A stretch of DNA of 48,025 bases from Opitutales bacterium. GTDB lineage: Bacteria > Verrucomicrobiota > Verrucomicrobiia > Opitutales > UBA953. Both the position numbers and the translations under genes were made by a program. This document shows positions 1-39,738 of this stretch, in pieces. The stretch lies in assembly GCA_009691685.1 (NCBI GenBank), contig SIAU01000007.1, forward strand, positions 1 through 48,025, in the 5' to 3' direction. A model generated the notes under the pieces. That model did no database searches and had not been told where the DNA came from. It saw only the letters and a program-made list of their open reading frames with translations. Position 1 is the first letter of the stretch, and every line of letters begins with the position of its first letter.

Positions 1-503
1 GCACCCGTGTGTAGTTCGACCACGGGGGCTCCGGTCGAATGTGCTGCTTCAATCTGTTTGTCGTTCGCTTCAATAAAAAGCGATACTTCACATCCAGCTG
101 CTTTAAGCGCCTGTACGGTTTCTTTTACTCGCTCAAATTGTTTAACTACATCTAAGCCACCTTCCGTGGTCACTTCTTCTCTGGATTCGGGAACCAGACA
201 CACGGCAGCCGGTTTCAGTTTTTTGGCGAAGACCACCATTTCGGCAGTGCAGGCCATTTCTAAATTTAAACGTACACCAGCAAGTTGTGCGATGGCGTAG
301 ACATCTTCTTCTTGAATGTGTCGACGATCTTCACGCAGGTGCACGGTGATCCCGTCAGCTCCGGCAAGGAGAGATTCGCGGGCAAAAGATACAGGGCTAG
401 GTTCGGCGTGGATAGATTGATGCGCCCCACGGTATCGAGCTTGGCGTAGCGTCGCTGCGTGATCGATATTTACCCCAAGTAGAATGGTACGTTTGGAATT
501 CAT
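1..503 (-). CDS. pdxJ: Pyridoxine 5'-phosphate synthase PdxJ (3' part beyond window)
   Basis: PdxJ condenses 1-deoxyxylulose 5-phosphate with 3-amino-2-oxopropyl phosphate to make pyridoxine 5'-phosphate in the DXP-dependent vitamin B6 pathway (cytoplasm). I translated the reverse strand from the ATG at 503: residues 8-21 read [14 protein letters not shown] and residues 50-62 read [13 protein letters not shown], both family hallmarks, followed by NLEMA near residue 80. About 167 of the usual roughly 240 residues are visible; the C-terminus lies left of position 1. It is the last gene visible in the minus-strand run, 42 nt after the uvrA stop. No Shine-Dalgarno is seen before the start. Confidence 0.93.
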
Positions 504-545
504 TAACCTATGAGTATTTCATTCAATTAAATGACTTAAGCCAAT

Positions 546-3500
546 TTATTTTATCTTACCTCTTTTTAAGGTGGCAGCTAACGCCGGAGCGGTTGGTGAA
601 TCTTTACGTTTTGCGAGTGCTTCGGGGTCTCCGGCATGTAAAAGCTGTCCGCCGTTCTGACCGCCTTCGGGTCCGATTTCTACCACCCAATCTGCTTCAG
701 CAATCACGTCGGGGTGATGCTCGATCACGATGACGGTATGGCCTTGATCGACCAAGGCGTGCAGTAGCTCGATAAGTTTTTTACAATCAGATTGGTGCAG
801 CCCGATAGTGGGCTCTTCTAATAAATATAAGTTGGGACGGATTTGTCCGCGTGCCCGCTCTCTAAACGTGGGCAGGCCTTTGGCTAATTCGCTCACCAAC
901 TTTAATCTTTGGGCCTCACCGCCTGAAAGAGTCGGGCTGCTTTGACCTAAGGTTAAATAACCCAAGCCCGTTTTGGTCATCAGGGCGCAGAGGTCTTTTA
1001 ATTTAACATCGAAGGAGAAAAATTCGGCTCCCTCTTCAAAAGTCATATTTAATAAATCACCTGCTGATTTTCCATTCCAGCGAATCGCCCGCGCGGCATT
1101 ACCGTAACGCAAACTTCCGCATTCTTCACAGGGTACATAAGTGTCGGGCAGAAAACTCATTTCTAATTTAATTCGACCCGCACCCGAGCAGGCTTCACAG
1201 CGTCCGCCCGATGTATTGAAGGAAAAGAAACTCGCATTATGTCCGCGAATCGAAGCTTCAGGAAGTGCGGCGAGTCGCTCACGAATGATATCCCACGCTC
1301 CAATATAAGTGGCAGGGGTGGATCGCGGTGTTTTGCCGATGGGTTCTTGGTCAACGATGACTAATTGACGGAATGATTTTAAGCCCGTGATAGACTGGAA
1401 AGAAATTTCACCCTGATTAGAAATTAATGCGAGGGCCTCTTTGCCGGTTATCCCATCTTTCTTTTTGGAAATCGCCCAACCAGCCGCGGGCGCAATGAGG
1501 TCAGTCATTAAAGTACTTTTGCCCGCACCCGATACTCCACAAACTACCGATAGTCGACCAGTGGGGAATTTTACATCAAACCCTTTTAGATTTCGCAGAC
1601 AGGCATTTTTCAATTTCACCCATTCAAGCGTATTATTCTTTTCAGTGATGGGTCGGCGGCTTCCGCGTAATGGGTGAAGGATGGCGGTTTTGAGAGACTG
1701 CCCGGTAACTGATTTTTTATTGGCTTCAAGACCAGCGGCTGTTCCTTCAGCGATGATTTGTCCGCCATGCACGCCCGCCCCTGGCCCCATATCGATAATA
1801 TTATCCGCGGCCCGCATGGTGTCTTCATCGTGTTCAACCACGAGCACGGTGTTACCTCGATTTCTTAGTTCTTTGAGTGATTCAATCAGTCGGTCATTGT
1901 CTCGGGGGTGTAATCCAATACTCGGCTCGTCTAATATATAGAGTGCACCGGAGAGGGTGGACCCCAGCTGAGCGGCGAGGCGTATGCGTTGTGACTCTCC
2001 ACCCGAGAGTGTGTCCGCACCGCGATCGAGTGAGAGATAGCCCAAGCCCACGGAACTTAAGAATTTTAAACGTGCCGAGATTTCAGGAAGTAGGGCCTGT
2101 ATGATGGCTTTTTCTCGCGCCTCGCCCTGCAGACTTTTCAGGAATTTTAAAGCTTCGTCTGGTTGAAGCTTTAGAAGTTGAGGCAACGAAAGTTTTTGTT
2201 CCTGTGCTCCGATGAGTTTAACTGCTCGACCGATGGGTCCGAGCCGTTGACCTTGGCAATCCGGACAAACGCTATCACTCACGCGGTCACCGAGAGCATT
2301 CTCATTGAGCGTTTCTTCTTCGTCGGCAGAGAATTTCGTAACTTCTAATCCGTGACCTCGACAAGTAGGGCACCATCCGCGTGGTGAATTCCAGGATAAG
2401 TGTTTCGGGTCAACCTCGGGGAAGGATTCGCCCGTCGCTGGATCACTTCTCGAGGTTGAAAGATAAAGGAGCTGCTTCCCCTGTTCATTAATTAAAAGAC
2501 AGGCACCTTTACTGGTAGTGAGAGTCTTGCGTATTAAATTTCTTAATGAGGCGTCGCCGTCTTCTTTGGTTTCATCAGGGTGCGAAATAATGCCATCGTG
2601 ATTAATAGTCGCTAGAATCACATCGACGTCGTGTTCGTTATAACGATCGAGTCCACTAAAGCCATCGACGGGGATGATTTGATTATCACAGCGTAAATGA
2701 GTGTAGCCATGTGCTTCGGCCCATTCCGCGAGTGGGCGGTGATGTCCTTTGCGTGAACGGACGAGGGGTGCCCCGATTAATATTTTGCCCCGCTTTAGGT
2801 TTTTAATATTTTTAGATATAATTCTTACGACCGCATCTTCCGTCATTTCGGTTAAAGGCTCGCCGGTGGTAGGACTGTGTAAAATCCCGGCCCGAGCAAA
2901 GAGCACGCGTAGGAATTGAGCCACTTCGGTGACGGTTGCGACCGTAGATTTAGCTGAGCCGCGGGTGACACGTTGTTCAATGGCTACGGTCGGCGGTAAG
3001 CCGGAGAGTGAATCGATATCCGGCTTAGGTAATTGTTCTACAAACTGCCGGGCATAAGCAGAAACACACTCTAAGAATCGCCTTTGTCCTTCAGCGAATA
3101 GAATATCGAAAGCCAGAGTTGATTTTCCTGATCCCGAAACACCCGTCATCACTGAAAGTGAACCGTGCGGAATTTTTACCGAAATATTTTTGAGGTTATG
3201 TTCTCGGGCGCCCGTGAGGGTGATAGCTGTAGGTCGCGGAGCACTGACATAATTTGTTTTTGCATCAAAGGCTTTGTCTTCTAGAGCGAGATATTTCCCG
3301 GTGGTTGTTTTTCCTTGGGCGACTACTTCAGGCGTTCCCTCGGCAATCAGTTTTCCGCCCCGCGGTCCAGCTTCAGGACCTATTTCTACGAGCCAATCGC
3401 AAGATTTTAAAACATCAAGATGGTGTTCTACGACGATGAGTGAGTGGCCGGCATCGGTGAGTCGTTGGAGTAATTTAATTAATTTAGAAACATCTTCGCG

Positions 3501-6056
3501 GTGTAATCCGGTGGTGGGTTCATCAAGCAGTAAGAGTGAACCGGTTTTTGATGGATCAAGTCGCGACAAATAACGCACCAGTTTTAAGCGCTGCGCTTCA
3601 CCACCCGATAAGGTGGTCAAAGGTTGTCCCATCGAAAGATAACCCAGGCCGACTTCTTCTAATACACTGAGTTGATTACTGGCAGGAGTTCGCCCACCGA
3701 GAAAAACACGAGCTTCGGTTACCGACATCGCTAATAAATCGGCCACGGATTTGCCGTCGAACTTGAAAGCTAAGATTTCATCACGGAAGCGTTTACCATT
3801 ACAGGAGGGGCAAGGCAGGGCGACGTCGGACACGAATTGCATCTCAACCGTTTCCCAGCCCGCTCCACCGCAGCGTTCACATCGTCCTTCCCCGGCGTTA
3901 AAAGAAAAATGTGATGGGGTGAGTCCCGCTACTTTGGCCGCATCGGAATTACCGAGTAAATTTCTAATAGCATCCCAGGCTCCGACATAAAGAGCGGGAT
4001 TAGAGCGTGAAGTGCGCGCGGCTGGTGATTGGTCAATGACGGCGACTTCTGCTGGATCCACGTCAAAAATTAATTTTCCATTCAGGGGATTGCTGGCGTC
4101 TTCGTCATCTAAATTTCCCCGTCCAATGACTTGGTGTAGTAGGGTTGATTTTCCTGAACCCGATACGCCACAGAGTCCGACGAGTTTACCTAGGGGCAGG
4201 GTGCCGGAAAAATTATTTAAATTATTAATGCTGATATTTTCAATACGCAGACGCGGAGTGGCATTAGTCACGGGTCTGATTTTGCGTGGTTCGACTTTTC
4301 GTTTACCCGAGAGCCATGCTCCCGTTGCGGAGTCTTTAATTTTTAAAATGCCATCGGGCTTACCCTGATAGAGGCAATAGCCACCTTGTGCACCGGGCTG
4401 AGGTCCAATTTCAATTAACCAATCGGCGGCCCGCATCACAGATTCATCGTGCTCCACTACCACCACCGTATTACCTTGATCGACCAGACTTCTTAAAATG
4501 GTTACCATCTTGGATAAGTCGCGGGCGTGCATGCCCACGCTAGGCTCATCGAGTACGAAAATCGTATCCGCTAAACAGGCACCGAGGCATGAAGTGAGAT
4601 TAACACGTTGAATTTCACCACCGGAAAGGGTCCGAGATAATCGATCAAGAGTCAGATAATTTAAACCGACCGCTTCTAAATAACCCAGGCGTGCTAAAAT
4701 AGCTTCGAGGGCGTGATTCGCTGGATGGCGGGAATTCTTTGGGGCGTGAGGCAGAAGTAACTCTTTAAGTTCTTTAACGGGGATGGCGTACAGATCAGCG
4801 AGTGTTTTATTTTCCCATTTCCAGAATAAGGATTCCGCACAAAATCTTTTTCCGTGGCATTGCGGACATTCTTCGTAGGCCCGCCAGCGCGACAGATACA
4901 TGCGCACATGCATTTTGTACGTGCTGGACTCGAGCCAGCGGAAGAAACCTCTGATCCCGTACCATTTAGATTCCCATTCGCCAGATTCGTATGTGGGGTC
5001 ACCCTCTTCGATAAATTTCCGGTGGCTTGCAGATAATTTATTCCAAGGAACATCCATCGGAATATTTTTCTTTTTACAGGCCCGTTGCATATCTTTCTGA
5101 CTTTCTCCGTAAACGGCTCCTTGAAAAGGGGCGATAGCACCCTCGGCCAAGGTAGTATCCTGCTGCGGAATAATTTTTTTCCAATCCAGTCCGATGACTC
5201 TTCCAAATCCGCGACAGCACGCACAGGCCCCAATGGGTGAGTTGAAAGAAAAGAGAGCAGGGGTCGCGGCTCTAAATTTTTTACCGTTAACGGGAGACTC
5301 TAGTACTTCACTGAAGCGGGCAATTTCGGTGCCGTCTTCATTAATTAATCGCATTCTTCCGCCCCCTAAACGAAAAGCGCTTAGAGTAGCTTCGTGAAAG
5401 CGAGAATTTGCGGCGGGTTCAATTTTAACACGATCCTGAATGAGCAAAATTTCAGATTCACCTTCCGGGATTTTATCATCACCGAGACTCACTCTTTTAT
5501 TTTTAATATAAGCACGGGTAAAGCCTGCTCGAATAAATTCATCGGCGATAGCTTCCCAGGTGAGTCCTTCGGGTTTTTGTAAGGCAAAGGTAATGACCAC
5601 CGATTGGTCGCGGTATTTTTTCAGACAGATTTCCCAGGCGGTATCGGGTCCTTGGGGGGTGATTGGTTCGCCGCTGGCGGGGTCGATGAGTTGTGCGCGG
5701 TGTGCAAACCAAACTTTAAACCAATCGCAAAGTTCGGTCATTGTGCCGACATTGGAGCGCGAGGTACGGACCGTGTTGCCTTGTTTAATCGCGACCGACG
5801 GGCGGATGTTTTCGGCGGAGTCGAGTGCGGGTGCAGGAAGTAGTTCTAAAAACTGACGGACGTATGGGCTAAACGTTTCAACGTAGCGTCGTTGGCCTTC
5901 GGCGTGGAGGGTGTCAAAAACGAGAGATGACTTGCCGGCTCCGCTGAGTCCAGTGACGACGATCAACTTTCCAATCGGAATATCGATATCAAAACCCTTG
6001 AGATTATTTTGGCGAACTCCACGGAGTCGGATGGCGTTGGGGCGACTGGTGGTCAT
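546..6056 (-). CDS. uvrA: Tandem-fused excinuclease ABC subunit UvrA (two UvrA modules, ~1836 aa)
   Basis: UvrA is the ABC-type damage sensor of nucleotide excision repair and loads UvrB on DNA. This protein is twice the usual ~940 residues and holds two complete UvrA modules, hence four ABC halves. Walker A motifs lie near residues 36 (GLSGAGKSS), 630 (GVSGSGKST), 975 (GVSGSGKST) and 1510 (GVSGAGKST); LSGGE signatures lie near 480, 820, 1355 and 1710. The C-terminal zinc finger of each module is intact (CERC..CPSC; CEAC..CEEC). The CPxC pair of the N-terminal zinc finger is missing in both modules. I chose the ATG at 6056; an in-frame TTG at 6068 adds four residues. Such fusions are known in Chlamydiae and other PVC bacteria. 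It lies 43 nt downstream of the formyl-THF cyclo-ligase gene. Confidence 0.95.
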   Translation of the reverse strand: MTTSRPNAIRLRGVRQNNLKGFDIDIPIGKLIVVTGLSGAGKSSLVFDTLHAEGQRRYVETFSPYVRQFLELLPAPALDSAENIRPSVAIKQGNTVRTSRSNVGTMTELCDWFKVWFAHRAQLIDPASGEPITPQGPDTAWEICLKKYRDQSVVITFALQKPEGLTWEAIADEFIRAGFTRAYIKNKRVSLGDDKIPEGESEILLIQDRVKIEPAANSRFHEATLSAFRLGGGRMRLINEDGTEIARFSEVLESPVNGKKFRAATPALFSFNSPIGACACCRGFGRVIGLDWKKIIPQQDTTLAEGAIAPFQGAVYGESQKDMQRACKKKNIPMDVPWNKLSASHRKFIEEGDPTYESGEWESKWYGIRGFFRWLESSTYKMHVRMYLSRWRAYEECPQCHGKRFCAESLFWKWENKTLADLYAIPVKELKELLLPHAPKNSRHPANHALEAILARLGYLEAVGLNYLTLDRLSRTLSGGEIQRVNLTSCLGACLADTIFVLDEPSVGMHARDLSKMVTILRSLVDQGNTVVVVEHDESVMRAADWLIEIGPQPGAQGGYCLYQGKPDGILKIKDSATGAWLSGKRKVEPRKIRPVTNATPRLRIENISINNLNNFSGTLPLGKLVGLCGVSGSGKSTLLHQVIGRGNLDDEDASNPLNGKLIFDVDPAEVAVIDQSPAARTSRSNPALYVGAWDAIRNLLGNSDAAKVAGLTPSHFSFNAGEGRCERCGGAGWETVEMQFVSDVALPCPSCNGKRFRDEILAFKFDGKSVADLLAMSVTEARVFLGGRTPASNQLSVLEEVGLGYLSMGQPLTTLSGGEAQRLKLVRYLSRLDPSKTGSLLLLDEPTTGLHREDVSKLIKLLQRLTDAGHSLIVVEHHLDVLKSCDWLVEIGPEAGPRGGKLIAEGTPEVVAQGKTTTGKYLALEDKAFDAKTNYVSAPRPTAITLTGAREHNLKNISVKIPHGSLSVMTGVSGSGKSTLAFDILFAEGQRRFLECVSAYARQFVEQLPKPDIDSLSGLPPTVAIEQRVTRGSAKSTVATVTEVAQFLRVLFARAGILHSPTTGEPLTEMTEDAVVRIISKNIKNLKRGKILIGAPLVRSRKGHHRPLAEWAEAHGYTHLRCDNQIIPVDGFSGLDRYNEHDVDVILATINHDGIISHPDETKEDGDASLRNLIRKTLTTSKGACLLINEQGKQLLYLSTSRSDPATGESFPEVDPKHLSWNSPRGWCPTCRGHGLEVTKFSADEEETLNENALGDRVSDSVCPDCQGQRLGPIGRAVKLIGAQEQKLSLPQLLKLQPDEALKFLKSLQGEAREKAIIQALLPEISARLKFLSSVGLGYLSLDRGADTLSGGESQRIRLAAQLGSTLSGALYILDEPSIGLHPRDNDRLIESLKELRNRGNTVLVVEHDEDTMRAADNIIDMGPGAGVHGGQIIAEGTAAGLEANKKSVTGQSLKTAILHPLRGSRRPITEKNNTLEWVKLKNACLRNLKGFDVKFPTGRLSVVCGVSGAGKSTLMTDLIAPAAGWAISKKKDGITGKEALALISNQGEISFQSITGLKSFRQLVIVDQEPIGKTPRSTPATYIGAWDIIRERLAALPEASIRGHNASFFSFNTSGGRCEACSGAGRIKLEMSFLPDTYVPCEECGSLRYGNAARAIRWNGKSAGDLLNMTFEEGAEFFSFDVKLKDLCALMTKTGLGYLTLGQSSPTLSGGEAQRLKLVSELAKGLPTFRERARGQIRPNLYLLEEPTIGLHQSDCKKLIELLHALVDQGHTVIVIEHHPDVIAEADWVVEIGPEGGQNGGQLLHAGDPEALAKRKDSPTAPALAATLKRGKIK

Positions 6057-6099
6057 CGGACCGCTCAACGGACTGCATAAGTGATTTTTAGCAAACCGA

Positions 6100-6681
6100 C
6101 TACGCAGGTTTAATATAAATTATTTGAGAGGGTGTAGCCATCGCGTGCATCACTATATCATGTGCTTCATGGGGAATAGCATCAACCACCTGAAAATCAT
6201 AACCGTACCCAAGAAAATAAGCGGTTGGACTAGCCTGGGCGAGTAGCCGATCGTAAAAACCTGCGCCGTGACCTAAGCGATTTCCTCGGCGATCAAAACC
6301 AATACCAGGTACGAGAAAGAAATCAATCTGAGTCGGGTTGATGCGCGGGCAGTTAATTTTTGGTTCAAGAATTTCTAAGGACGAGAGTTCTAAATCCTGA
6401 AAACTTTTAATTTCATAAAGTTCAGGCTGTCCCTCCGAATTGACTTTAGGGAGGACGCATCTCTTTTCTGAATTTAGAAGATTTTGCAAAAGCTGTGTCG
6501 TCGGTAATTCGCCTTGGAAAGACGCATACAGGCAAACCACTTTTGCGTTTTGCCATTCGGGTAGATGGACAATTTTTGCTTCAGCGGCAATCGCCGCAGC
6601 TTCGCGCTGGGGAGCTCCGACGGACTCGCGTGAACTTTTTAATTCCTGCCGCAGTCGCACTTTTACTTCCTGCGGATCCAT
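6100..6681 (-). CDS. 5-formyltetrahydrofolate cyclo-ligase
   Basis: The enzyme (MTHFS, YgfA/Fau type) converts 5-formyl-THF to 5,10-methenyl-THF with ATP, returning a storage or inhibitory folate to one-carbon metabolism. At 193 residues it has the normal family length. The substrate/ATP loop is at residues 123-146, with VPGIGFDRRGNRLGHG followed by AGFYDRL, matching the family's VPG.AFD..G.RLG.G.G.YDR pattern. The ATG at 6681 lies 2 nt after the ctaB stop, so the two are probably co-transcribed. In many bacteria this gene sits near 6S RNA (ssrS); I see no 6S-like structure here. Confidence 0.9.
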   Translation of the reverse strand: MDPQEVKVRLRQELKSSRESVGAPQREAAAIAAEAKIVHLPEWQNAKVVCLYASFQGELPTTQLLQNLLNSEKRCVLPKVNSEGQPELYEIKSFQDLELSSLEILEPKINCPRINPTQIDFFLVPGIGFDRRGNRLGHGAGFYDRLLAQASPTAYFLGYGYDFQVVDAIPHEAHDIVMHAMATPSQIIYIKPA

Positions 6682-6683
6682 AG

Positions 6684-7598
6684 TTAGAACAGACGATTAA
6701 GAGTGAGGGTGAGAAGGATGACAGGGAGATAAAGTATCGACGCGAGGAAGAAAGGTTTGGCGACTTCGTTCCGGCGATGGGGTAGCATAAAATCGAGACT
6801 GAGTTTTAAAAAGATGATACTTGCGATGAGGGACACCCAGATAAACGGGCTCATCCAGCCTTTCAGGGTTGAAGTGCAATCGGGTGCAAAAAATGTTTGG
6901 GCAATCGCACTCACCACGAAGAGCATCGGAATCATGAATGAAATCGACCACAGTGCAGCAGAGCGTCCGGTGGGATCGGCCACGGTGGCGATTTTAAATC
7001 CGCCGCGTTCATAATCATTTCGACACATGACAGCGAGAGACATGAAGTGAGGAACTTGCCAGAAAAAGAGTAGGGCAAAAAGCCACCAGCCCATCGTATC
7101 AATTGCGCCTAATTTTGTGGCCGTGCCGATGATGGGTGGAATCGCGCCTGGGAGTGAGCCAACCAGCGTGCACCAAGTTGTTTTTGTTTTAAGCGGTGTG
7201 TAGAAGAGTAAGTAGGAGACCACTGTCGCGAGGGTGAGAAGTCCGGCCAAGGTGTTGGCTCCTTTCCAAACCAAACCTACCCCGACGATACTTAAAAACG
7301 TTCCAAAAATAAGGGCGTGGAGTGGTTTAATCAAACCACTGGGCAATGGACGGAACTTGGTGCGATCCATTTGGCTGTCGGCCTGCCGTTCCATCCACAT
7401 ATTAAGTGCCCCACATCCTCCTGCGGCGAGTGCGGTGCCGAGTGCGAGTGATACGAGTCCCTTGGAGTCAACTCCGCCTTGGGGATGAGGATTACTACAG
7501 AAATATCCAGTGAGTGCGGTCAGTACGGAAAGAAAAGATAAACGCGGTTTAGTTAGCTCCCAATAGGCGGCGGGGATTGATCCAGCTTTGGAGCTCAT
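6684..7598 (-). CDS. ctaB: Protoheme IX farnesyltransferase (heme O synthase)
   Basis: CtaB/CyoE is a membrane UbiA-family prenyltransferase that adds a farnesyl group to heme B, giving heme O. The 304-residue product starts with LTKPR at residues 15-19 and has the Mg-prenyl-diphosphate motif N..D..MDRT at residues 66-80 (NMWMERQADSQMDRT). The second acidic loop reads CRNDYERGGFKI. The rest is a series of hydrophobic segments, as expected for eight to nine membrane helices. It follows ctaA by 35 nt. The pair makes heme A for aa3-type cytochrome oxidase, which is not in this window. Confidence 0.95.
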   Translation of the reverse strand: MSSKAGSIPAAYWELTKPRLSFLSVLTALTGYFCSNPHPQGGVDSKGLVSLALGTALAAGGCGALNMWMERQADSQMDRTKFRPLPSGLIKPLHALIFGTFLSIVGVGLVWKGANTLAGLLTLATVVSYLLFYTPLKTKTTWCTLVGSLPGAIPPIIGTATKLGAIDTMGWWLFALLFFWQVPHFMSLAVMCRNDYERGGFKIATVADPTGRSAALWSISFMIPMLFVVSAIAQTFFAPDCTSTLKGWMSPFIWVSLIASIIFLKLSLDFMLPHRRNEVAKPFFLASILYLPVILLTLTLNRLF

Positions 7599-7633
7599 AC
7601 GTTGGTGGTGACGATTTTAATTAAAGGTTAAAG

Positions 7634-8551
7634 TTAATTCCGTCGATGCATCAGAGCAACTTGGGCACAGAGAGTGGAGAATAGGGCGGCACCTATCACC
7701 AGGTGAATCGTTCGAACATGAGGATTCAAAGGTAATTGTATGCTTAAAATCCCGAGCGTGATTTGTATGGTCAAAAGAACTAATAGTGAAATCCAGCGGT
7801 GAGCAGGTCGCTGACCGGACAAAGCAAAAACAATCACGAGAATGCCAGCGAGGAGTGCTCCGCCGCGGTGCAAACTATTAATCACCTGGGGTAGTCCGGC
7901 GCCGTTAGGGATAAAAAGTTCGTAGGTGGTTGGCTGGGTTGCCCAAAGGGTGAAATGATTTTGGCGCATGACTGCCCCCATCAGAATGACACTTAATAAA
8001 AGAATTAAACTAATCCATCCGCTGACTATTTCAAAACGGGTAGAGTGGTTGGTACTATTTTGCCAAAGTTTCGTGTGACTCATTGCGACGACGGCTAAGA
8101 CGGCGATGGTGAGTTGAGCGTTCACGGCGTGGCCTATGGCGAAGCTGACCGCTTTAAAATTTCCATCTCCACCAATATTTAATTGGTCGAGCAGCACACG
8201 TAATCCGCCGAGTAGACCTTGAAAAATAATTAATCCTAAAAGTAGATAGGAAGCCTGACGAATCAGTGGTCGTTTTTCCCAGCGACGATGAGTCCAGGCG
8301 ATGGCGATACAAAATAAACCCAGCCCAGTCGCTGCTAATCGGTGGGAGTGTTCGGCAAACTTATCAATTTCGGTGAGCCAACCGGGAGGATTGAGTGAGC
8401 CGTTGGAAAGTGGCCAATCGAGAAAAGCCATGCCCGCTCGGATGCTGGTCGTGAATCCACCGGCTTGCAGAACGAGTACCGCCCACACCAGTGCACTTAA
8501 GCACAGCCATTTCAAAAATGGATTAGGAAGTGAAACCGGTGAATCCTTCAT
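7634..8551 (-). CDS. ctaA: Heme A synthase (COX15/CtaA)
   Basis: CtaA oxidises heme O to heme A in the membrane. The 305-residue protein has about eight hydrophobic segments and the paired histidines expected as heme ligands: H68 and H70 (EHSHR), H141 (IGHAVNAQL), H228 (SLHRGGA) and H283 (TIHLVIGA). The first periplasmic loop (MAFLDWPLSNGSLNP) lacks the cysteine pair seen in Bacillus-type enzymes, so it fits the cysteine-less class. It lies 5 nt after sufE and 35 nt before ctaB, in one probable transcript. Its presence implies an aa3-type oxidase and aerobic respiration. Confidence 0.93.
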   Translation of the reverse strand: MKDSPVSLPNPFLKWLCLSALVWAVLVLQAGGFTTSIRAGMAFLDWPLSNGSLNPPGWLTEIDKFAEHSHRLAATGLGLFCIAIAWTHRRWEKRPLIRQASYLLLGLIIFQGLLGGLRVLLDQLNIGGDGNFKAVSFAIGHAVNAQLTIAVLAVVAMSHTKLWQNSTNHSTRFEIVSGWISLILLLSVILMGAVMRQNHFTLWATQPTTYELFIPNGAGLPQVINSLHRGGALLAGILVIVFALSGQRPAHRWISLLVLLTIQITLGILSIQLPLNPHVRTIHLVIGAALFSTLCAQVALMHRRN

Positions 8552-28856: not shown

Positions 28857-29324
28857 ATGCGTCACCGCTCTCACCATAACGTCCTCGGCGTCAAAACCGC
28901 CCACCGTCGTTCCCTCGTTGCCAACCTGGCTGCAGCACTCATCAAGAATGCTCGTATCACCACCACGCTCTCCCGCGCCCGTGCTGTCCGTCCTTTCGCC
29001 GAACGTTTAATCACGCTCGCTAAGAAGGCTGAACAGTCCGCTGACAAGAGCGTCAAACTGCACTACTATCGTTTGGCCATGGCTCGCTTACGCGATGAAT
29101 CCGCTGCCAACCTTCTTTTCAAAGAACGGGTTAAGCAGTTCATGACTCGCAATGGTGGCTTCACACGTATCTACAAGCTCAACGTCCGTAAGGGCGATGC
29201 TGCTGAAACTGCGCTTATCGAATTAGTCGGTAAAGATGACAAAGCTCCCGCTTTAACACCTAAGGCTAAAACTGCACGTAAGCCTAAGGTTGCTAAGGAA
29301 GAAGCGTCAGCAGCCACTGCCTAA
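28857..29324 (+). CDS. rplQ: 50S ribosomal protein bL17 with Lys/Ala tail
   Basis: bL17 is a bacteria-specific protein near the tunnel exit. The core begins MRHRSHHNVLGVKTAHRRSL and includes the conserved ITTTLSRARAVRPFAERLIT and RNGGFTRIYKL. The protein is 155 residues against 127 in E. coli; the extra length is a C-terminal tail of Lys, Ala and Thr (KAKTARKPKVAKEEASAATA). It is the last gene before the terminator that ends the cluster. Confidence 0.97.
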   Translation: MRHRSHHNVLGVKTAHRRSLVANLAAALIKNARITTTLSRARAVRPFAERLITLAKKAEQSADKSVKLHYYRLAMARLRDESAANLLFKERVKQFMTRNGGFTRIYKLNVRKGDAAETALIELVGKDDKAPALTPKAKTARKPKVAKEEASAATA

Positions 29325-29345
29325 GCGCTAAAAACATAAACTTAA

Positions 29346-29386
29346 CGAGACGCGTCATTGTTCCTAGTGACGCGTCTCGCTTTTTT
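29346..29386 (+). terminator. Intrinsic terminator of the ribosomal cluster
   Basis: A perfect 12-bp stem, CGAGACGCGTCA (29346-29357) and TGACGCGTCTCG (29368-29379), encloses a 10-nt loop and is followed by C and six T residues (29381-29386). It lies 21 nt after the rplQ stop. No comparable structure is visible between rpsL and rplQ, which supports a very long transcript. Confidence 0.92.
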
Positions 29387-29410
29387 AATCAAAACCCCTA
29401 ATTTTCAACC

Positions 29411-29647
29411 ATGCTTCAGCCTATCGACCTCGATGTCTTTTTGGCCTGTCTCGTCGCCGCGGTTATTGGGGCACTTTTCTTTCTGCAATTTTGGTACGAC
29501 CGGCGCGATGCTTTGCTTTCGGATCACCGTCGCTTGAGCTCCGTTTTTTCCTGCACCCGTTGCAGTTTTACCTATGTACGCCCGCGTCGTCGAGCAGAGG
29601 CCTCCTGTCCGCAATGTGGCTGGAATAACGCCCGTCTTAAATTTTAA
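29411..29647 (+). CDS. Small membrane-anchored zinc-ribbon protein
   Basis: This 78-residue protein has one hydrophobic helix at about residues 9-28 ([20 protein letters not shown]) and then a basic stretch. A compact zinc-ribbon pattern follows: C48-x2-C51 (CTRC) and C66-x2-C69 (CPQC), separated by 14 residues. I do not recognise a named family. It may be a membrane-tethered metal-binding or assembly factor. It starts 25 nt after the cluster terminator and 14 nt before guaA, so it is probably expressed with guaA. Confidence 0.7.
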
Positions 29648-29661
29648 CCTCCAGCATTTTT

Positions 29662-31215
29662 ATGAATCAACGGTCCATCGCTATTCTTGATTTTGGTTCA
29701 CAACTTACCAAGGTCATCGCCCGACGCGTCCGTGAATGCAATGTTCACTCCCGCATTTATGCGTTCGATGTCTCAGCGGAAACCCTCCGTGCGGATGGGG
29801 TCATCGGCGTTATTTTTTCAGGCGGACCTTCGAGTGTTAAAGCTAAGGGATCCCCTCGCCCTCAATCAGAAATATTTGAAATGGGCTTACCGATTCTCGG
29901 TATTTGTTACGGCGTGCAGTTAATGGGGGAGATGCTGGGCGGCCAAGTGGCAAGTAGTCAGCATCGCGAATACGGCCATGGCATGTTATCGTTCCGTCCG
30001 AAGAAGTCCGAACTCTTACACGGATTAAAATCGCCCTTACGCGTTTGGAATTCGCACGGGGATAAAGTGACACGCCTGCCCAAAGGCTTTCACGCCGTAG
30101 CGGGTACAGAGAATTCTAAGAATGCCGTCGTTGAAGATACTCGCCGGAGATTTTACGGAATCCAATTCCACCCCGAAGTAGCTCACTCGGAGCGCGGCTT
30201 AGAAATCATCAAAAACTTTTTGTTCCGGATTTGTAAATGTAAGCCGAATTGGGTGATGGGTGATTACGTTGAAACGGCTATTCAAGATATCCGCAATCGG
30301 GTAGGGGACTCCCACGTCATCTTAGGACTATCCGGTGGTGTTGATTCATCCGTCGCTGCCGCCCTCATTCAAAAGGCTATCGGCAAACAACTTACCTGCG
30401 TATTTGTAGATAATGGCTTGCTCCGCCTGGGTGAACGTCAACAGGTCGAGAAAATGTTCCGCGGAAAATTTAAAGTGGATCTTCGCGTCGTCGATGCGTC
30501 TGCTATCTTTTTGAAAAAATTAAAAGGTGTGAGAGATCCTGAGAAGAAACGTAAAATTATCGGACGTGAATTTATCGCTGTCTTTGATCGCTCGGTAAAA
30601 GACCTAGCTAAAAAAGGTAAAGTAGAGTTCTTAGCGCAGGGCACGCTTTATCCTGATGTCATTGAATCGATTTCACCGGGTGGCGGTCCAGCGGTGACGA
30701 TTAAGAGTCACCACAATGTGGGCGGCCTACCGAAGCGCATGAAATTAAAACTCCTCGAGCCATTGCGTGAGTTATTTAAGGATGAAGTACGAGCTCTCGG
30801 TGAAGCCTTAGGCTTACCTAAAGAGATGGTCTGGCGTCACCCTTTCCCAGGCCCTGGTTTAGCAGTGCGTATTTGTGGTGATATTACTCCCGAGCGACTA
30901 GAGATTCTTCGTAAAGCCGATGATATCTTTATTAACGAATTAAGAACGTCCGGAAACTACAGCAAAGTCTGGCAGGCCTTCGCGGTCTTTCTTCCCGTGC
31001 GGAGCGTGGGTGTGATGGGTGATGGCCGCACCTATGATAATGTTTGTGCGCTGCGCGCCGTTACCTCTTCGGATGCGATGACCGCCGATTGGGCACGTTT
31101 GCCGTATGATGTTTTACAACGCGCCTCTACCCGAATTATTAATGAAGTTAAGGGCATCAATCGCGTCGTGTACGATGTTTCGTCAAAGCCCCCCGCTACC
31201 ATCGAGTGGGAGTAG
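29662..31215 (+). CDS. guaA: GMP synthase (glutamine-hydrolysing)
   Basis: GuaA turns XMP into GMP, taking ammonia from glutamine. The 517-residue enzyme has the class I amidotransferase triad: C82 (GICYGVQ), H170 and E172 (FHPEVAHSE). The ATP-pyrophosphatase domain follows with SGGVDSS at 224-230, and then the GuaA dimerisation domain with [12 protein letters not shown] and the C-terminus KPPATIEWE. Its stop codon is one base before the left 63-bp repeat of the acyltransferase island. Confidence 0.97.
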
Positions 31216-31216
31216 G

Positions 31217-31279
31217 CAATCTCTTTGCCCCGTTGACACTTTATCGCTTAGGGTTTTGATTAAGTCCTGTGTCCGAGCC
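31217..31279. repeat. 63-bp direct repeat, left copy (decayed dnaX 5' end)
   Basis: This copy is identical over 63 bp to 32408-32470. It begins 1 nt after the guaA stop and contains TTGACA (31233-31238), TTGATT (31256-31261) and GTG at 31269. Reading from that GTG gives only MSEPV before TAA at 31284, whereas the right copy continues into full dnaX. The left copy therefore appears to be the former dnaX promoter and start, separated from the gene by the inserted segment. If still active, its promoter would fire antisense to the acyltransferase gene. Confidence 0.93.
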
Positions 31280-32407
31280 TGTTTAAGTGTATCTCCGCAG
31301 TGCTATTTTCTTAAGTTTTAAGGCAGGTTTCTCAATGAGATACCAAGAGATAAAAGCCATGCAGATAGTGCATAGCATTGCTGAAACAAAACTTATTGGG
31401 GTCCCTTGGATTTTACAAAAAAGCCACAGATTTACTATAGGCATATGGTATATATATATTCCATATGAAATATCGTTTCCACCGAGCACTTGATCGGAAA
31501 GAGAGGGATTTGTGTAAGCCAGTCTAAACATTAATAGGCATAATAAGATAAAACTTATAAAGTTAATGTTATTCCCGGTTCCTAAATTATATTCTAAGGC
31601 AAAGAAGTAGGTTACCACATAAAGCCCGAGATAAATGAGGGGGTTTATCGAAAGAATTTTTGCCTGCAGATTTCTGTTTGTTGAAATATATGCACCTACC
31701 ATAAACATGTAAAACCAAGGTGCGAATGAGACCACCATGAGTTTTTCTGCTACACTGCTTTTTTCATTTAAAAATGTGTTTAATAAATTTACCAACACGA
31801 GAATAAACGCCAGGGAAATACTTATTTTTTTGTATTTAGTGTAGAGAAGGAAAAGTAATGGAGTTAAAATATAAAACTGGAGCTCAGCGGAGATAGTCCA
31901 AAGGCTACCATTAATTGCTCCTACACCATACGCTCTTAAGAAATCGGGATTATAAAACTGAAAAAAAGTTAATGACGTAAAAACCCAAGTAAAAAAATCT
32001 TTGGATATATAACTTTGTGTCTCTAAATATCCGCTAATAAATAATGATAATAGTGTGACAACGAAACAAAAAAACAAAGCAGGATAAAGACGTAGAAATC
32101 TATTTATAAAAAACGTCCCCAATTTCTTTTCTTTGATATTAGAAAATGATTGGTATATTAGATATCCACTTATAAAAAAGAAAATTGGAACGCCTGGGAA
32201 ATATTGTAGTATTGAAAAAATTACAGCAGGCAGTTTGATATTCAAATGGTTTGCTGTGTGCAATATGGCTACTTGGGTGGCAGCAAGCAGTCTAATCAGA
32301 TCCAAGTTGTTCACTGCGACTGTTGATTTCATTTTAGTTTGGGCTTTAAAACTTGTTTTTTAAATAGCTAAGGTCCCGATTTTAGCAAGTGTCTGTTGGC
32401 AACAAAA
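31280..32407. mobile_element. AT-rich inserted segment bounded by the 63-bp repeats
   Basis: The 1128-bp segment between the two repeats holds one complete gene on the opposite strand to all neighbours and is clearly richer in A+T than the genes on either side. No transposase, integrase or terminal inverted repeat is visible. The flanking 63-bp identity is far longer than an ordinary target-site duplication and regenerates the 5' end of dnaX, as site-specific or homology-driven integrations do. The mechanism is unknown; calling it acquired DNA is inference. Confidence 0.6.
31283..32332 (-). CDS. Acyltransferase 3 family membrane protein (OafA/NodX/ExoZ-like)
   Basis: Such proteins transfer acyl groups, often acetyl, to sugars of lipopolysaccharide, capsule or other glycans, from the inner membrane. 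The 349-residue product has the family start DLIRLLAATQVAILH (residues 11-25, catalytic-site histidine H25) and FFFISGYLIYQSF near residue 51. About ten hydrophobic segments follow and the end is basic (LKLKKIALRRYT). Codon and base use are strongly AT-rich, unlike guaA and dnaX, which suggests transfer. It stands alone, without other polysaccharide genes, so the substrate cannot be named. The stop codon lies only 4 nt inside the left repeat junction. Confidence 0.88.
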   Translation of the reverse strand: MKSTVAVNNLDLIRLLAATQVAILHTANHLNIKLPAVIFSILQYFPGVPIFFFISGYLIYQSFSNIKEKKLGTFFINRFLRLYPALFFCFVVTLLSLFISGYLETQSYISKDFFTWVFTSLTFFQFYNPDFLRAYGVGAINGSLWTISAELQFYILTPLLFLLYTKYKKISISLAFILVLVNLLNTFLNEKSSVAEKLMVVSFAPWFYMFMVGAYISTNRNLQAKILSINPLIYLGLYVVTYFFALEYNLGTGNNINFISFILLCLLMFRLAYTNPSLSDQVLGGNDISYGIYIYHMPIVNLWLFCKIQGTPISFVSAMLCTICMAFISWYLIEKPALKLKKIALRRYT

Positions 32408-32470
32408 CAATCTCTTTGCCCCGTTGACACTTTATCGCTTAGGGTTTTGATTAAGTCCTGTGTCCGAGCC
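32408..32470. repeat. 63-bp direct repeat, right copy (functional dnaX 5' end)
   Basis: This copy is identical to 31217-31279. It carries the likely dnaX promoter and the first codons of dnaX (GTG TCC GAG CC). Just beyond it the two copies still resemble each other weakly (CCTGTT against CCCGTC) before diverging. The two copies lie in direct orientation, so recombination between them would remove the acyltransferase gene and restore guaA-dnaX adjacency. Confidence 0.93.
32424..32452 (+). promoter_or_regulatory. Candidate dnaX promoter (possibly leaderless transcript)
   Basis: TTGACA at 32424-32429 is a perfect -35 match; TTGATT at 32447-32452 follows after 17 nt (or TTTGAT after 16). Transcription would start near 32458-32460, at or beside the GTG start codon, so the mRNA may be leaderless. 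The -10 match is weak. The whole element is duplicated at 31233-31261. Confidence 0.45.
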
Positions 32471-33971
32471 CGTCTTTCAAGTTATTGCCCGCCGCTGGCG
32501 CCCTCGTCGCTTTGACGAATTGGTGGGCCAAGAACACATTGTACGTACATTGAGTAATGCTTTAAAGACAAAGCAACTCGCCCACGCCTACCTTTTTGTG
32601 GGTCCTCGCGGTACGGGAAAAACCACCACCGCTCGTATTCTAGCAAAAGCATTAAACTGCGGTAAGGAGACTAATCCAGATTTCTCGGTCGACGATCCGG
32701 TTTGCCAAGAAATTGAACAGGGCAACTGCTTGGACGTCATTGAAATCGATGCCGCCTCGAATCGTTCAATCGATGATGCCAAAAAAATCCGTGAAGAGTG
32801 CCAATACCCTCCCGTAAATTGTCGTTTCAAAATATTCATCATCGACGAGGTGCACCAGTTAACGAAAGACGCCTTTAATACTTTATTAAAAACTCTCGAA
32901 GAGCCACCCGCTTGGGTAAAATTTATCTTAGCGACCACCGAAGCTGACAAAGTCCTTCCCACCATCACTTCACGTTGTCAGCGCCTCGAATTTCATCCCA
33001 TCGCCGAAGAAGTTATTGCGGCTCAATTAGCGCGCATTGTTAAGGCCGATGGAGTGCAAGCCGAGCCCGCAGCGCTAAATGCGATTGCTCGTATCGCTAA
33101 TGGCGGAATGCGCGACTCCCAGTCTATTTTAGATCAGGTAATTTCTTTCTCTGGAAAAAAGGTTACCGAAGTCGATGTGTTATCCATTTACGGCCTAGCT
33201 TCGGCTCAACAAATTTCTGATTTAGCAAAAGGTATCGCCCAGAGCGATGCGAAGTCAGTCATCGCACTATGCGATAAATTTCACGCCGAAGGTCGTGATT
33301 TAATGCGCGTGATGAATGATCTCCAATTATTAGTCCGCTCCGCTGTGCTCGATGCAGTTAAACAGGGTGGCAACAGTGCGCATCTCGGTGCACCACTCAC
33401 TACGGAGAAACTCGTCAGCTTTTTGGAATGCTTGCAGACCAGTGAACAGGGCATTCGCTACGGACTTTCACCCAGAGCGAATTTTGAAGTCACTTTACTT
33501 AAAGCGATTGAACAGTGTAAGACGCGACCGATTGATCATCTCATCAAAGACGTCGCCGCCGCTGCAGCCAGACTTCCTCGGGAGTCTGGCCAAAAAAAAA
33601 TAAACAGTTCGCAACCGACACCCGCGGTTGAGGCGCCCTCGGAACCGGTCAAGGTAGTGGTCCAGGAATCTGTCTCGCCCGAAGTGGATATCGATGAAGA
33701 CCAAACCTCTGTCACAGAACTTTCGGTGAGCGATGAGGCGGGCATTATCATTGATGAAAAGATCAGTGATTATAAATTTGAAATACCTGCAGGCCCGGCG
33801 ACTCGCCCCGTTGAATCAGCTAAACCCCTTTTTCCAGGCGACAAAGATTTTGATGCCGCCGTAAAAGCCATGCCCCAAGGTCTAAAAGATAAACTGAAAG
33901 AAACCTTGGGAGCTGAGTTTACCTCTCTGCGCTCCGTTTCGGCAGATAAACTGCACCGCCCGCAATCCTAG
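32460..33971 (+). CDS. dnaX: DNA polymerase III tau (and probable gamma) subunit
   Basis: DnaX is the ATPase of the clamp loader and links polymerase to helicase. The 503-residue tau form starts at GTG 32460 (MSEPVFQVIARRWRPRRFDE). It has Walker A GPRGTGKT (48-55), IIDEVHQL with D129/E130, and sensor SRC at 171-173. Of the four cysteines of the usual zinc module only the first and last seem present (C67, C82); an extra C90 follows. An A9 run at 33592-33600 right after a stem-loop lies at the end of domain III; slippage there would give gamma-like products of 380 or 390 residues. The stop codon overlaps the next gene's GTG by one base. Confidence 0.96.
   Translation: MSEPVFQVIARRWRPRRFDELVGQEHIVRTLSNALKTKQLAHAYLFVGPRGTGKTTTARILAKALNCGKETNPDFSVDDPVCQEIEQGNCLDVIEIDAASNRSIDDAKKIREECQYPPVNCRFKIFIIDEVHQLTKDAFNTLLKTLEEPPAWVKFILATTEADKVLPTITSRCQRLEFHPIAEEVIAAQLARIVKADGVQAEPAALNAIARIANGGMRDSQSILDQVISFSGKKVTEVDVLSIYGLASAQQISDLAKGIAQSDAKSVIALCDKFHAEGRDLMRVMNDLQLLVRSAVLDAVKQGGNSAHLGAPLTTEKLVSFLECLQTSEQGIRYGLSPRANFEVTLLKAIEQCKTRPIDHLIKDVAAAAARLPRESGQKKINSSQPTPAVEAPSEPVKVVVQESVSPEVDIDEDQTSVTELSVSDEAGIIIDEKISDYKFEIPAGPATRPVESAKPLFPGDKDFDAAVKAMPQGLKDKLKETLGAEFTSLRSVSADKLHRPQS
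33567..33600 (+). promoter_or_regulatory. Stem-loop plus A9 slippage site inside dnaX
   Basis: GCCAGACTTC (33567-33576) pairs with GGAGTCTGGC (33581-33590) in a 10-bp stem with one G-U pair and the tetraloop CTCG. After a single C come nine A residues. Loss of one A reads CAA AAA AAA TAA and stops at codon 380; gain of one A stops after codon 390. Both shifted frames stop at once, at the domain III/IV boundary, as expected of a site that makes gamma from tau. A9 slippage in Thermus dnaX is the precedent. Confidence 0.65.
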
Positions 33972-36957: not shown

Positions 36958-37000
36958 AGGGTCGTTTGACTAAATCGGTCGGGTGATATAAAAATTATTA

Positions 37001-37730: not shown

Positions 37731-38732
37731 ATGGCTTCAAAATCTCCTATTCGTGTTTCTGTAACAGGTGCCGCTGGCAATATCGGTTACGCCGCCATAT
37801 TCCGAATCGCCTCAGGCGCCGTGTTTGGTGCCGATCAGCCCGTTGCTTTAAACTTAATTGAAGTGGGTCCTGGTTTAAATGCTTTAGCGGGTGTAGTCAT
37901 GGAACTCCAAGATTGTGCGTTCCCTTTGCTCACCGACGTCGTTGCTACCGGAGATTTAGATGAAGGATTCAAGGATGCCGATTGGTGTCTCTTAATTGGT
38001 GCCGTTCCACGTAAAGATGGCATGGAGCGAAAAGATTTATTAGGTATCAACGGAAAAATTTTCATCGGACAAGGACAGGCGATTGCGCGTTCAGCCAAGA
38101 AGTCCGTTAAAGTTTTAGTCGTGGGTAATCCTTGCAACACCAACGCCTTAATTGCTCTACGTTCGGCTGCGGGATTAAAAGAAGAAAATTTCTTTGCGAT
38201 GACTCGTCTCGATGAGAATCGTGCGAAGTCACAGCTGGCGAATAAAGCGGGCGTGCATAACTCCGTGGTTAAGAATGTAGCTATTTGGGGAAATCACTCT
38301 TCTACGCAGTATCCTGACTTCACTCATGCCACCATTGCGGGCAAACCTGCCACTCAAGTAATTTCGGATCACGCATGGTTAAAAGAAACTTTCGTCAATG
38401 ACGTCCAAAAGCGTGGTGCCGCTGTGATTAAAGCACGTGGGGCTTCTTCGGCAGCTTCGGCAGCGAATGCTGCCCTCGATACTCTGCGTAATTTACATTT
38501 TGCAACGCCCGCTGGTGAATGGCATTCGGTAGCGGTTTTATCGAAGGGTGATTATGGTATTACCCCAGGAATTATGTTTGGATATCCTATTCGTACTCTC
38601 GCCGATGGCTCTTGGGAAATCGTCAAAGGATTAGCGGTCGACGAATTTTCGCGCGGGAAAATTTCGATTACCGAAAAAGAGTTACTAGAAGAGCGTGCCA
38701 CCGCGTCGGAAGCGCTCGGCCTAAAACTCTAA
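37731..38732 (+). CDS. mdh: Malate dehydrogenase
   Basis: Mdh oxidises malate to oxaloacetate with NAD in the TCA cycle. The 333-residue product has the dinucleotide loop GAAGNIGY (13-20), the substrate arginines R94 and R100 ([13 protein letters not shown]), the D161/R164 pair ([10 protein letters not shown]) and the catalytic histidine H189 ([11 protein letters not shown]). This belongs to the MalDH class closest to the cytosolic and chloroplast enzymes. It ends 4 nt before the stop of the convergent DUF362-like gene, with no terminator between. Confidence 0.96.
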
Positions 38733-38736
38733 GCGA

Positions 38737-39738
38737 TTATTCGGCTTTCAGTTTTATCAGGGTGATGTCAGCCGGGCGACAGGTACCCAGTTTAATTTCA
38801 CCATTATTGGCGGCTGAGAAAATAGCGGGCTCAGGGCGAATGGGCTCAACGTTACGCTCGGTTCTTCCGCCGTTAATTTTTTGCAGTCCAATGTAGTCGA
38901 GAATCACCGGATTGGCACTAGCGAGGATGGTTTTTTCTGACTTACACCAGCTCGCGTCAAAGCTCGGTCCGCCCAGTACTTGAAAGTTTTCTAACGAAAC
39001 AATATTAAGAATATTCTTTGTGGAAAGTTCGGGTATCGCGCAAACTTCAATGGCTACCTTAGAAGCATTCGCGGGGTTGTCGTTGAATCGCTCGCTATTA
39101 GCGATGCTTCCCAGCGAGGCGGAGCCAATCGCGCCAAAAACCCCGAGCGCTTTGCTGTCAGATATCACGGGCAGATTAATCCAAAAATCGACTTCATCGA
39201 ATAAGGTTTTGGGGAGAACGCTGATCCGATTATCGCCCCAGGCCACGGTCGGAGAGCCGGGACGTGGCATGACCTGATTTTCATAACAAAGTTTTTTATC
39301 CTTTGCCCAGTTAGTCGCTTCGGCTTCGAAGGCTATCACGGGTAGACCTTCAAAAGTTTGTGGATCGGTACGGAGCGCAGGCAGGAAGCCGCATTCACGT
39401 AAGCTTTGTAGATTAGCATCACACAGAATAATCGAGTCTCGACTGAAGCCTCGTTTTTCGAGGGCCTGACTCAGGGCACGAATGAGTGGTTTGGGTGTGG
39501 CTAAGCCGAGTCCCGACTGTGAAGAAATTTTCAATCCACATTTTCCGAGTTTGCCTGGTTTCAGTCCGACGCCCGTTTGTTTTTCAAATTCTTCAAGGAT
39601 GCTATCCACTGCATGGGTGTAATGTTTGTCGCTGAAGCCTTGAAGCTTTTGCTCGATGAGTAGCGACTTGGGGTCGGTGACAGCATCTAGGCTTAACACT
39701 AGGCTGCAAAAAGCAAAGAGAGTGAACAAGCGACGCAT
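38737..39738 (-). CDS. Exported DUF362-like protein
   Basis: I place the start at the ATG at 39738, because it begins a clear signal peptide (MRRLFTLFAFCSLVLSLDA); an upstream in-frame start at 39816 adds 26 non-hydrophobic residues. The mature protein resembles the DUF362 fold family: LIRALSQALEKRGFSRDSII with an acidic turn, the central FWINLPVISDSKALGVFGAI, then SASLGSIANSERFND, and near the end WCKSEKTILASANPVILDYI. DUF362 proteins are often linked to iron-sulfur or redox roles; here no ferredoxin cysteines are seen, so the role is open. It is convergent with mdh and divergent from the MFS gene. Confidence 0.75.
   Translation of the reverse strand: MRRLFTLFAFCSLVLSLDAVTDPKSLLIEQKLQGFSDKHYTHAVDSILEEFEKQTGVGLKPGKLGKCGLKISSQSGLGLATPKPLIRALSQALEKRGFSRDSIILCDANLQSLRECGFLPALRTDPQTFEGLPVIAFEAEATNWAKDKKLCYENQVMPRPGSPTVAWGDNRISVLPKTLFDEVDFWINLPVISDSKALGVFGAIGSASLGSIANSERFNDNPANASKVAIEVCAIPELSTKNILNIVSLENFQVLGGPSFDASWCKSEKTILASANPVILDYIGLQKINGGRTERNVEPIRPEPAIFSAANNGEIKLGTCRPADITLIKLKAE

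Follow-up and report, generated by a model that had tools for sequence, protein, structure and literature searches.

The locus lies between guaA and dnaX in a 48,025-bp stretch of draft genome, the whole of which was analysed and is called the window here. Both neighbouring genes are intact, and the segment between them carries one acyltransferase gene on the minus strand and is flanked by two copies of a 63-bp direct repeat (Table 1). Comparison within the window showed that the two copies are identical over 63 bp, and the extended comparison gave 98% identity over 66 bp, that is, one mismatch. The duplicated stretch begins just past the end of guaA and extends to codon 4 of dnaX. In the left copy the start is followed directly by a stop (GTG TCC GAG CCT GTT TAA), which yields only MSEPV-stop, and the right copy opens an intact dnaX of 503 codons. 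The first-pass annotation, which had described a perfect repeat, an abortive left start, a preserved dnaX 5' end and an AT-rich acyltransferase gene on the opposite strand with no recombinase beside it, was borne out on each of these points by sequence comparison, reading frames, composition and Pfam.

Table 1. Positions of the genes, repeat copies and conserved motifs at the guaA-dnaX locus of the window
Feature	Position	Strand	Evidence
guaA, left neighbour, intact	29662..31215	+	ORF; Pfam GATase and GMP_synt_C
Left repeat copy (63 bp) with dnaX leader, GTG start and initial codons; reads MSEPV-stop	31217..31279	+	Exact repeat
TTTGCCCCGTTGACAC, left copy, containing genus-conserved CCGTTGACA	31224..31239	+	Junction comparison
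Inserted segment, apparently foreign, 1,128 bp, 33.6% GC	31280..32407	.	Composition; site empty in 44/55 genus genomes
Acyltransferase-3 gene, 349 aa, full length	31283..32332	-	PF01757 9.7e-29; nearest kin found proteobacterial, 47-60%
Right repeat copy (63 bp) with the leader and start of intact dnaX	32408..32470	+	Exact repeat
TTTGCCCCGTTGACAC, right copy, containing genus-conserved CCGTTGACA	32415..32430	+	Junction comparison
dnaX, right neighbour, intact	32460..33971	+	ORF; Pfam DNA_pol3_delta2; relatives

Repeat pair and inserted segment

The draft genome (57 contigs, 88% complete) was searched for further copies of the 63-mer as the first-pass annotation had proposed, and only the two places at guaA-dnaX were found. 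Within the window the pair is the sole exact direct repeat of at least 24 b at 50-8,000 b spacing. One further pair of this kind was detected in a 337,611-b sample from other contigs of the same genome; it measures 32 b with copies 155 b apart and by eye looks like tRNA genes. At 200-6,000 b spacing, exact pairs reached 22 b at most in this sample and 20 b at most in sequence from related genomes (443,165 b), so the 63-bp repeat stands far above background. No second repeat of comparable length and closeness was present in the 386 kb of the window's genome that were examined. The repeat is real as assembled.

A TTGACA hexamer in the repeat sits within the core CCGTTGACA, which was present in 46/46 measured genus junctions with both genes (window included). 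The label promoter-like, given to it before, is owed to the -35 hexamer and this conservation, and the promoter scan called no promoter at the site. The remaining leader upstream of dnaX is variable among these junctions. Rfam gave no match up to E 1 across 29300-32600. On the other side of guaA, the rplQ-guaA spacer (window 29325-29661) is near-constant at 336-346 bp in 20/20 relatives and has no Rfam match.

The GC content of the insert is 33.6% vs 48.7% for the window. The Acyl_transf_3 profile matched the encoded protein over positions 2-325 of 326, practically its full length. By ORF list and Pfam the insert has no recombinase gene; it has no second ORF of at least 80 aa and, the single ORF of that size being the acyltransferase, no transposase. 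Its ends contain no inverted repeat of at least 18 b; exact inverted matches between its terminal 60 b stretches reach 7 b at most.

Relatives of the acyltransferase were sought by a pattern-led search, which reaches only part of them. The nearest kin found was from Sphingomonas soli (60%), followed by beta- and alphaproteobacterial records (47-57%) and Chitinophagaceae (45%). Within the genus, 6/54 other genomes gave weak matches of 25-34% identity. No kin was found in viral contigs; phages gave 24 records, with 27-30% identity in the best 10 of 24, and plasmids gave 121 records, all below 60% and about 30% in the best 10 of 121. Horizontal acquisition is the best explanation of a gene whose nearest kin found belong to other phyla or classes. 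Judged by its family, its probable role is the acylation of a surface glycan. The gene contexts of two nearer kin (L073 and L074, not the two nearest) consist chiefly of metabolic and transport genes with no clear glycan cluster, and in L074 the kin gene adjoins one for an SGNH protein that matches Acyl_transf_3 below threshold.

The guaA-dnaX junction in the genus and in a sister species

Among 55 genus genomes, the guaA-dnaX site was empty in 44, occupied in 3, broken in 1 (the sister species G060) and unreadable in 7 (G006, G007, G017, G022, G027, G071 and G073). Since the site is empty in 44/55, the acyltransferase segment is an insertion, as had been claimed, and an ancient gene order carried by all relatives is at odds with these counts. 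The empty junctions measured with both genes (43/44) have 50-53 bp from the guaA stop to the dnaX start; in the 44th (G031) the contig starts at the guaA stop and a 53-bp spacer follows. Of 20 order-level genomes, 17 were read upstream of dnaX, most over about 2 kb and one over about 300 b, and none of the 17 showed guaA there; the gene pair therefore appears to be specific to the genus.

The occupied junctions measure 1,244 bp in the window, 1,121 bp in G020 and 696 bp in G062. Their cargos belong to three families, acyltransferase-3, Methyltransf_24 and hexapeptide transferase, respectively, and all lie on the minus strand; surface-glycan roles are likely for all three, as far as family membership can tell. 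The G020 insert (L115, G020:C153, 2079-3162) is an independent insert with a methyltransferase gene, and is bordered by two guaA 3'-end copies agreeing at 14/16 positions. Its left copy has the island consensus GAGTGGGA, and its right copy has GAATGGGA, as do the closely related G023 and G032. The guaA gene of G020 was considered as carrying a donor tract, and this was rejected, as none was seen. The G062 insert (L123, G062:C4, about 975-1670), with a hexapeptide transferase gene, showed no exact repeat of at least 20 b. The three occupied junctions therefore have three distinct boundaries: the guaA 3' end, no repeat, and the 63-bp dnaX leader of the window. In the window, the sequence preceding the right copy bears a weak likeness to the guaA end (12/22), which was not accepted as an att site.

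The first-pass annotation had proposed to look in relatives for empty sites and for other cargo with the same 63-bp boundary: empty sites and other cargo were found, and the boundaries of the other cargo are different ones. Its suggestion of a variable trait holds in that occupancy varies within the genus and two other genomes carry other single genes; gain and loss within a population was its own inference. The idea that guaA-dnaX is the most variable junction here was rejected. Inserts of at least 500 bp were counted in 20 relatives selected for long contigs, with the window and G020 not among them, and occurred in 1/20 at guaA-dnaX vs 5/20 at hrpB-37001 (junction matching window 36958-37000) and 8/20 at 37731-38737 (junction matching window 38733-38736).

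The broken junction deserves closer description. G060 and the window share 91.0% DNA identity in guaA, 91.9% in dnaX and 91-94% overall at the locus. In G060, contig C54 (90.5 kb) stops after guaA and contig C47 (97.5 kb) starts before dnaX; the end of C54 and the start of C47 share exactly 55 bases, and this 55-mer begins at the left-edge base of the window's repeat. A second draft genome thus branches at the same base as the repeat. From about 120 G060 contig ends 39 were taken, three of which read as N and were dropped, and among the 36 ends compared five pairs overlap by exactly 55, the guaA-dnaX pair being one of them; 55 therefore looks like the word length of the G060 assembler. With about 120 ends in 1.5 Mb, a chance break at one given base was estimated at the order of 1 in 10,000. 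Other stretches of at least 55 b common to the window and G060 were passed without a break, 107 in the 20 kb of C54 next to the junction and 31 in the initial 20 kb of C47, so the presence of the window's species in the G060 sample explains the branch poorly. A strain variant within G060 is possible. The G060 bin yielded only chance-level pieces of about 20-27 b of the insert and no acyltransferase kin; the inserted piece may have been too short to be binned.

Among eight chosen genus genomes, only G060 has a full-length match to the 63-mer. Spacers are mostly 95-100% identical between the window and G060 (one 83%), and identity at the junction is not above that of most other spacers, so the shared dnaX leader alone proves nothing. 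The fourfold-site distance between the two genomes is 0.455 for guaA and 0.326 for dnaX (first 1,101 b). If the left copy were unconstrained and predated the G060 split, about 10-14 changes would be expected in it, and 0 were observed. Consequently, either the duplication postdates the split, or recombination has kept the copies identical, or the left copy is under constraint; combined with the branch in G060, the lack of changes leaves interspecies exchange, conversion or repeated use of one site.

Origin of the insertion

Our preferred reading, held tentatively and with slightly less than even confidence, is a non-integrase (illegitimate) insertion in which one acyltransferase gene of horizontal origin came in and 63 bp of the target were duplicated. 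It is favoured because the target is duplicated exactly with both neighbours intact, and neither a recombinase nor a terminal inverted repeat is present. Foreign acyltransferase DNA would have entered between guaA and dnaX by an illegitimate event that doubled 63 bp of the target, possibly staggered-break repair, or a polymerase switching onto the incoming DNA and back. Selection may have retained the insert, as the guaA end and the dnaX leader and start were spared, and insertions damaging these would have been lost. Later, homologous exchange through guaA and dnaX could have carried the segment from one relative to another, and its precise loss would be possible by way of the repeats. Separate, selection-filtered events fit the other single genes with other boundaries in G020 and G062. 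Ku was found in 0/9 genomes tested, which makes classical end joining unlikely. A ComEC-family domain was found in 9/9, and its support for DNA uptake is weak because the same search was also positive for the E. coli control.

The lack of Ku weighs against this reading, as do further points. A length of 63 bp is long for a duplication from illegitimate insertion, and an unguided event would not be expected to recur at the very base where G060 branches. Illegitimate insertion would thus need the insertion to be shared or exchanged between the species, and then, given zero changes, would also need conversion, exchange or constraint.

The main rival, which we regard as rather unlikely, is a Campbell single crossover, in which a circle carrying the acyltransferase gene and the 63-bp stretch, possibly excised earlier from the same locus in a relative, integrated and left one 63-bp copy on either side. 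The exact geometry, the identical copies and the two intact neighbours all suit it, and a reusable circle explains the boundary in the sister species better than illegitimate insertion does. The repeat also exceeds the 30-bp RecA threshold quoted in the passages on such repeats in PMC2884548. However, the circle must already carry the dnaX leader of this species, which accounts for reuse and not for origin. Homology as short as 63 bp would be expected to recombine rarely. The entry of circular DNA with the 63-mer, already suggested in the first-pass annotation, thus agrees with the geometry, but no such molecule was found and a 26-mer of the repeat had 0 exact matches in viral contigs.

Integration by a site-specific recombinase supplied in trans is improbable; the 63 bp would then be the identity common to the att sites of a cassette-like system directed at the 5' end of dnaX. 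Such an enzyme might well leave an exact repeat by which the end of a gene is restored, as the first-pass annotation had argued for an unrecognised cassette system, and G060 branches at the same base; moreover, the G020 insert with its guaA 3'-end copies (14/16) follows the pattern of guaA-targeting islands in the passages on them in PMC7775301, and a further recombinase could be missing from a draft that is 88% complete. Against this, Phage_integrase-domain matches numbered only 2 in the window's genome, both on other contigs, and 2 in G060, as many as a housekeeping Xer pair would give, which they may be; G020 and G062 had 4 and 3, respectively. Furthermore, three inserts have three different boundaries and the guaA motif GAGTGGGA occurs only once in the window. 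A dedicated recombinase at this site has no direct support.

It is quite doubtful that integrase-free single-gene cassettes exist here. In such a system, circles with one 63-bp copy would use the dnaX leader and start as a recurrent point of entry and exit, at the same base in at least two species of the genus, and would exchange surface-modifying genes with dnaX rebuilt each time. An assembly artefact, with a short contig or strain variant joined through a 63-b shared stretch, would suit a draft of 57 contigs and a repeat of assembler-word order (a sample of the draft's own contig-end overlaps revealed no word length), but G060 branches exactly at the left edge with 107 other shared stretches unbroken nearby, and two other genomes carry inserts at guaA-dnaX, so the misassembly objection is weakened and the artefact improbable.

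Significance and comparison with known systems

The locus shows how a pair of core genes can take up foreign DNA between them harmlessly, in that the insertion duplicates the leader and start of the neighbour. If the same boundary has been reused in the sister species, it would offer a simple and checkable integrase-free route for the swapping of bacterial surface genes. At the least, the 63-bp pair serves as a clean marker, as the stretches examined contain no second repeat of like size and spacing.

DDE-type insertion sequences and transposons do not match the segment, which has no transposase, a longest terminal inverted match of 7 b and a duplication of 63 bp. An integron gene cassette would call for an attC site and an integron integrase in the genome, and Phage_integrase-domain matches in the draft number only two. 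The acyltransferase resembles phage O-antigen acetylase genes such as oac of Sf6 in being a related enzyme and a mobile surface-modifying gene; unlike there, identity is 27% only and the insert holds no phage gene.

Genomic islands at the guaA 3' end, e.g. ICERspD18B, target guaA and have the consensus GAGTGGGA, according to the passages on them in PMC7775301. The window shares with the islands so described the neighbourhood and a preserved gene end, and G020 has a repeated guaA end; in contrast, the repeat of the window lies after guaA, over the dnaX leader. GAGTGGGA was found once in the window, at 31204, and not as a direct repeat at the borders, and the insert has no integrase gene by ORFs and Pfam, the domain matches lying on other contigs. 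Small variable segments between core genes, with direct repeats at their base and illegitimate recombination as the proposed origin, are described in part of PMC2884548, where repeats shorter than 30 bp make up 66-94%. Our segment is likewise short, variable, repeat-flanked and placed between core genes, but differs from those described there in a 63-bp repeat with a rebuilt gene start.

Literature searches on dnaX-guaA islands, single-gene insertions, k-mer overlaps and acyltransferase islands found no description of this arrangement among the papers listed, and those on long target site duplications with bacteria returned, by titles and the opening of abstracts, only retrotransposons or other matters. 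By definition, a minimal mobile element is said to be transferred by homologous recombination in its flanks. The concept (Saunders and Snyder 2002, as cited in a passage of PMC4269198) differs from our case in that the insert here is bordered by a 63-bp duplication of the 5' end of a core gene, and that flank exchange is putative. It agrees with our case in that different genomes hold different cargo between the same two conserved genes with no recombinase: the conserved flanks enclose varied cargo (44 empty and 3 occupied by three families among 55 genomes), and the segment is free of a recombinase of its own, with Phage_integrase matches on other contigs only.
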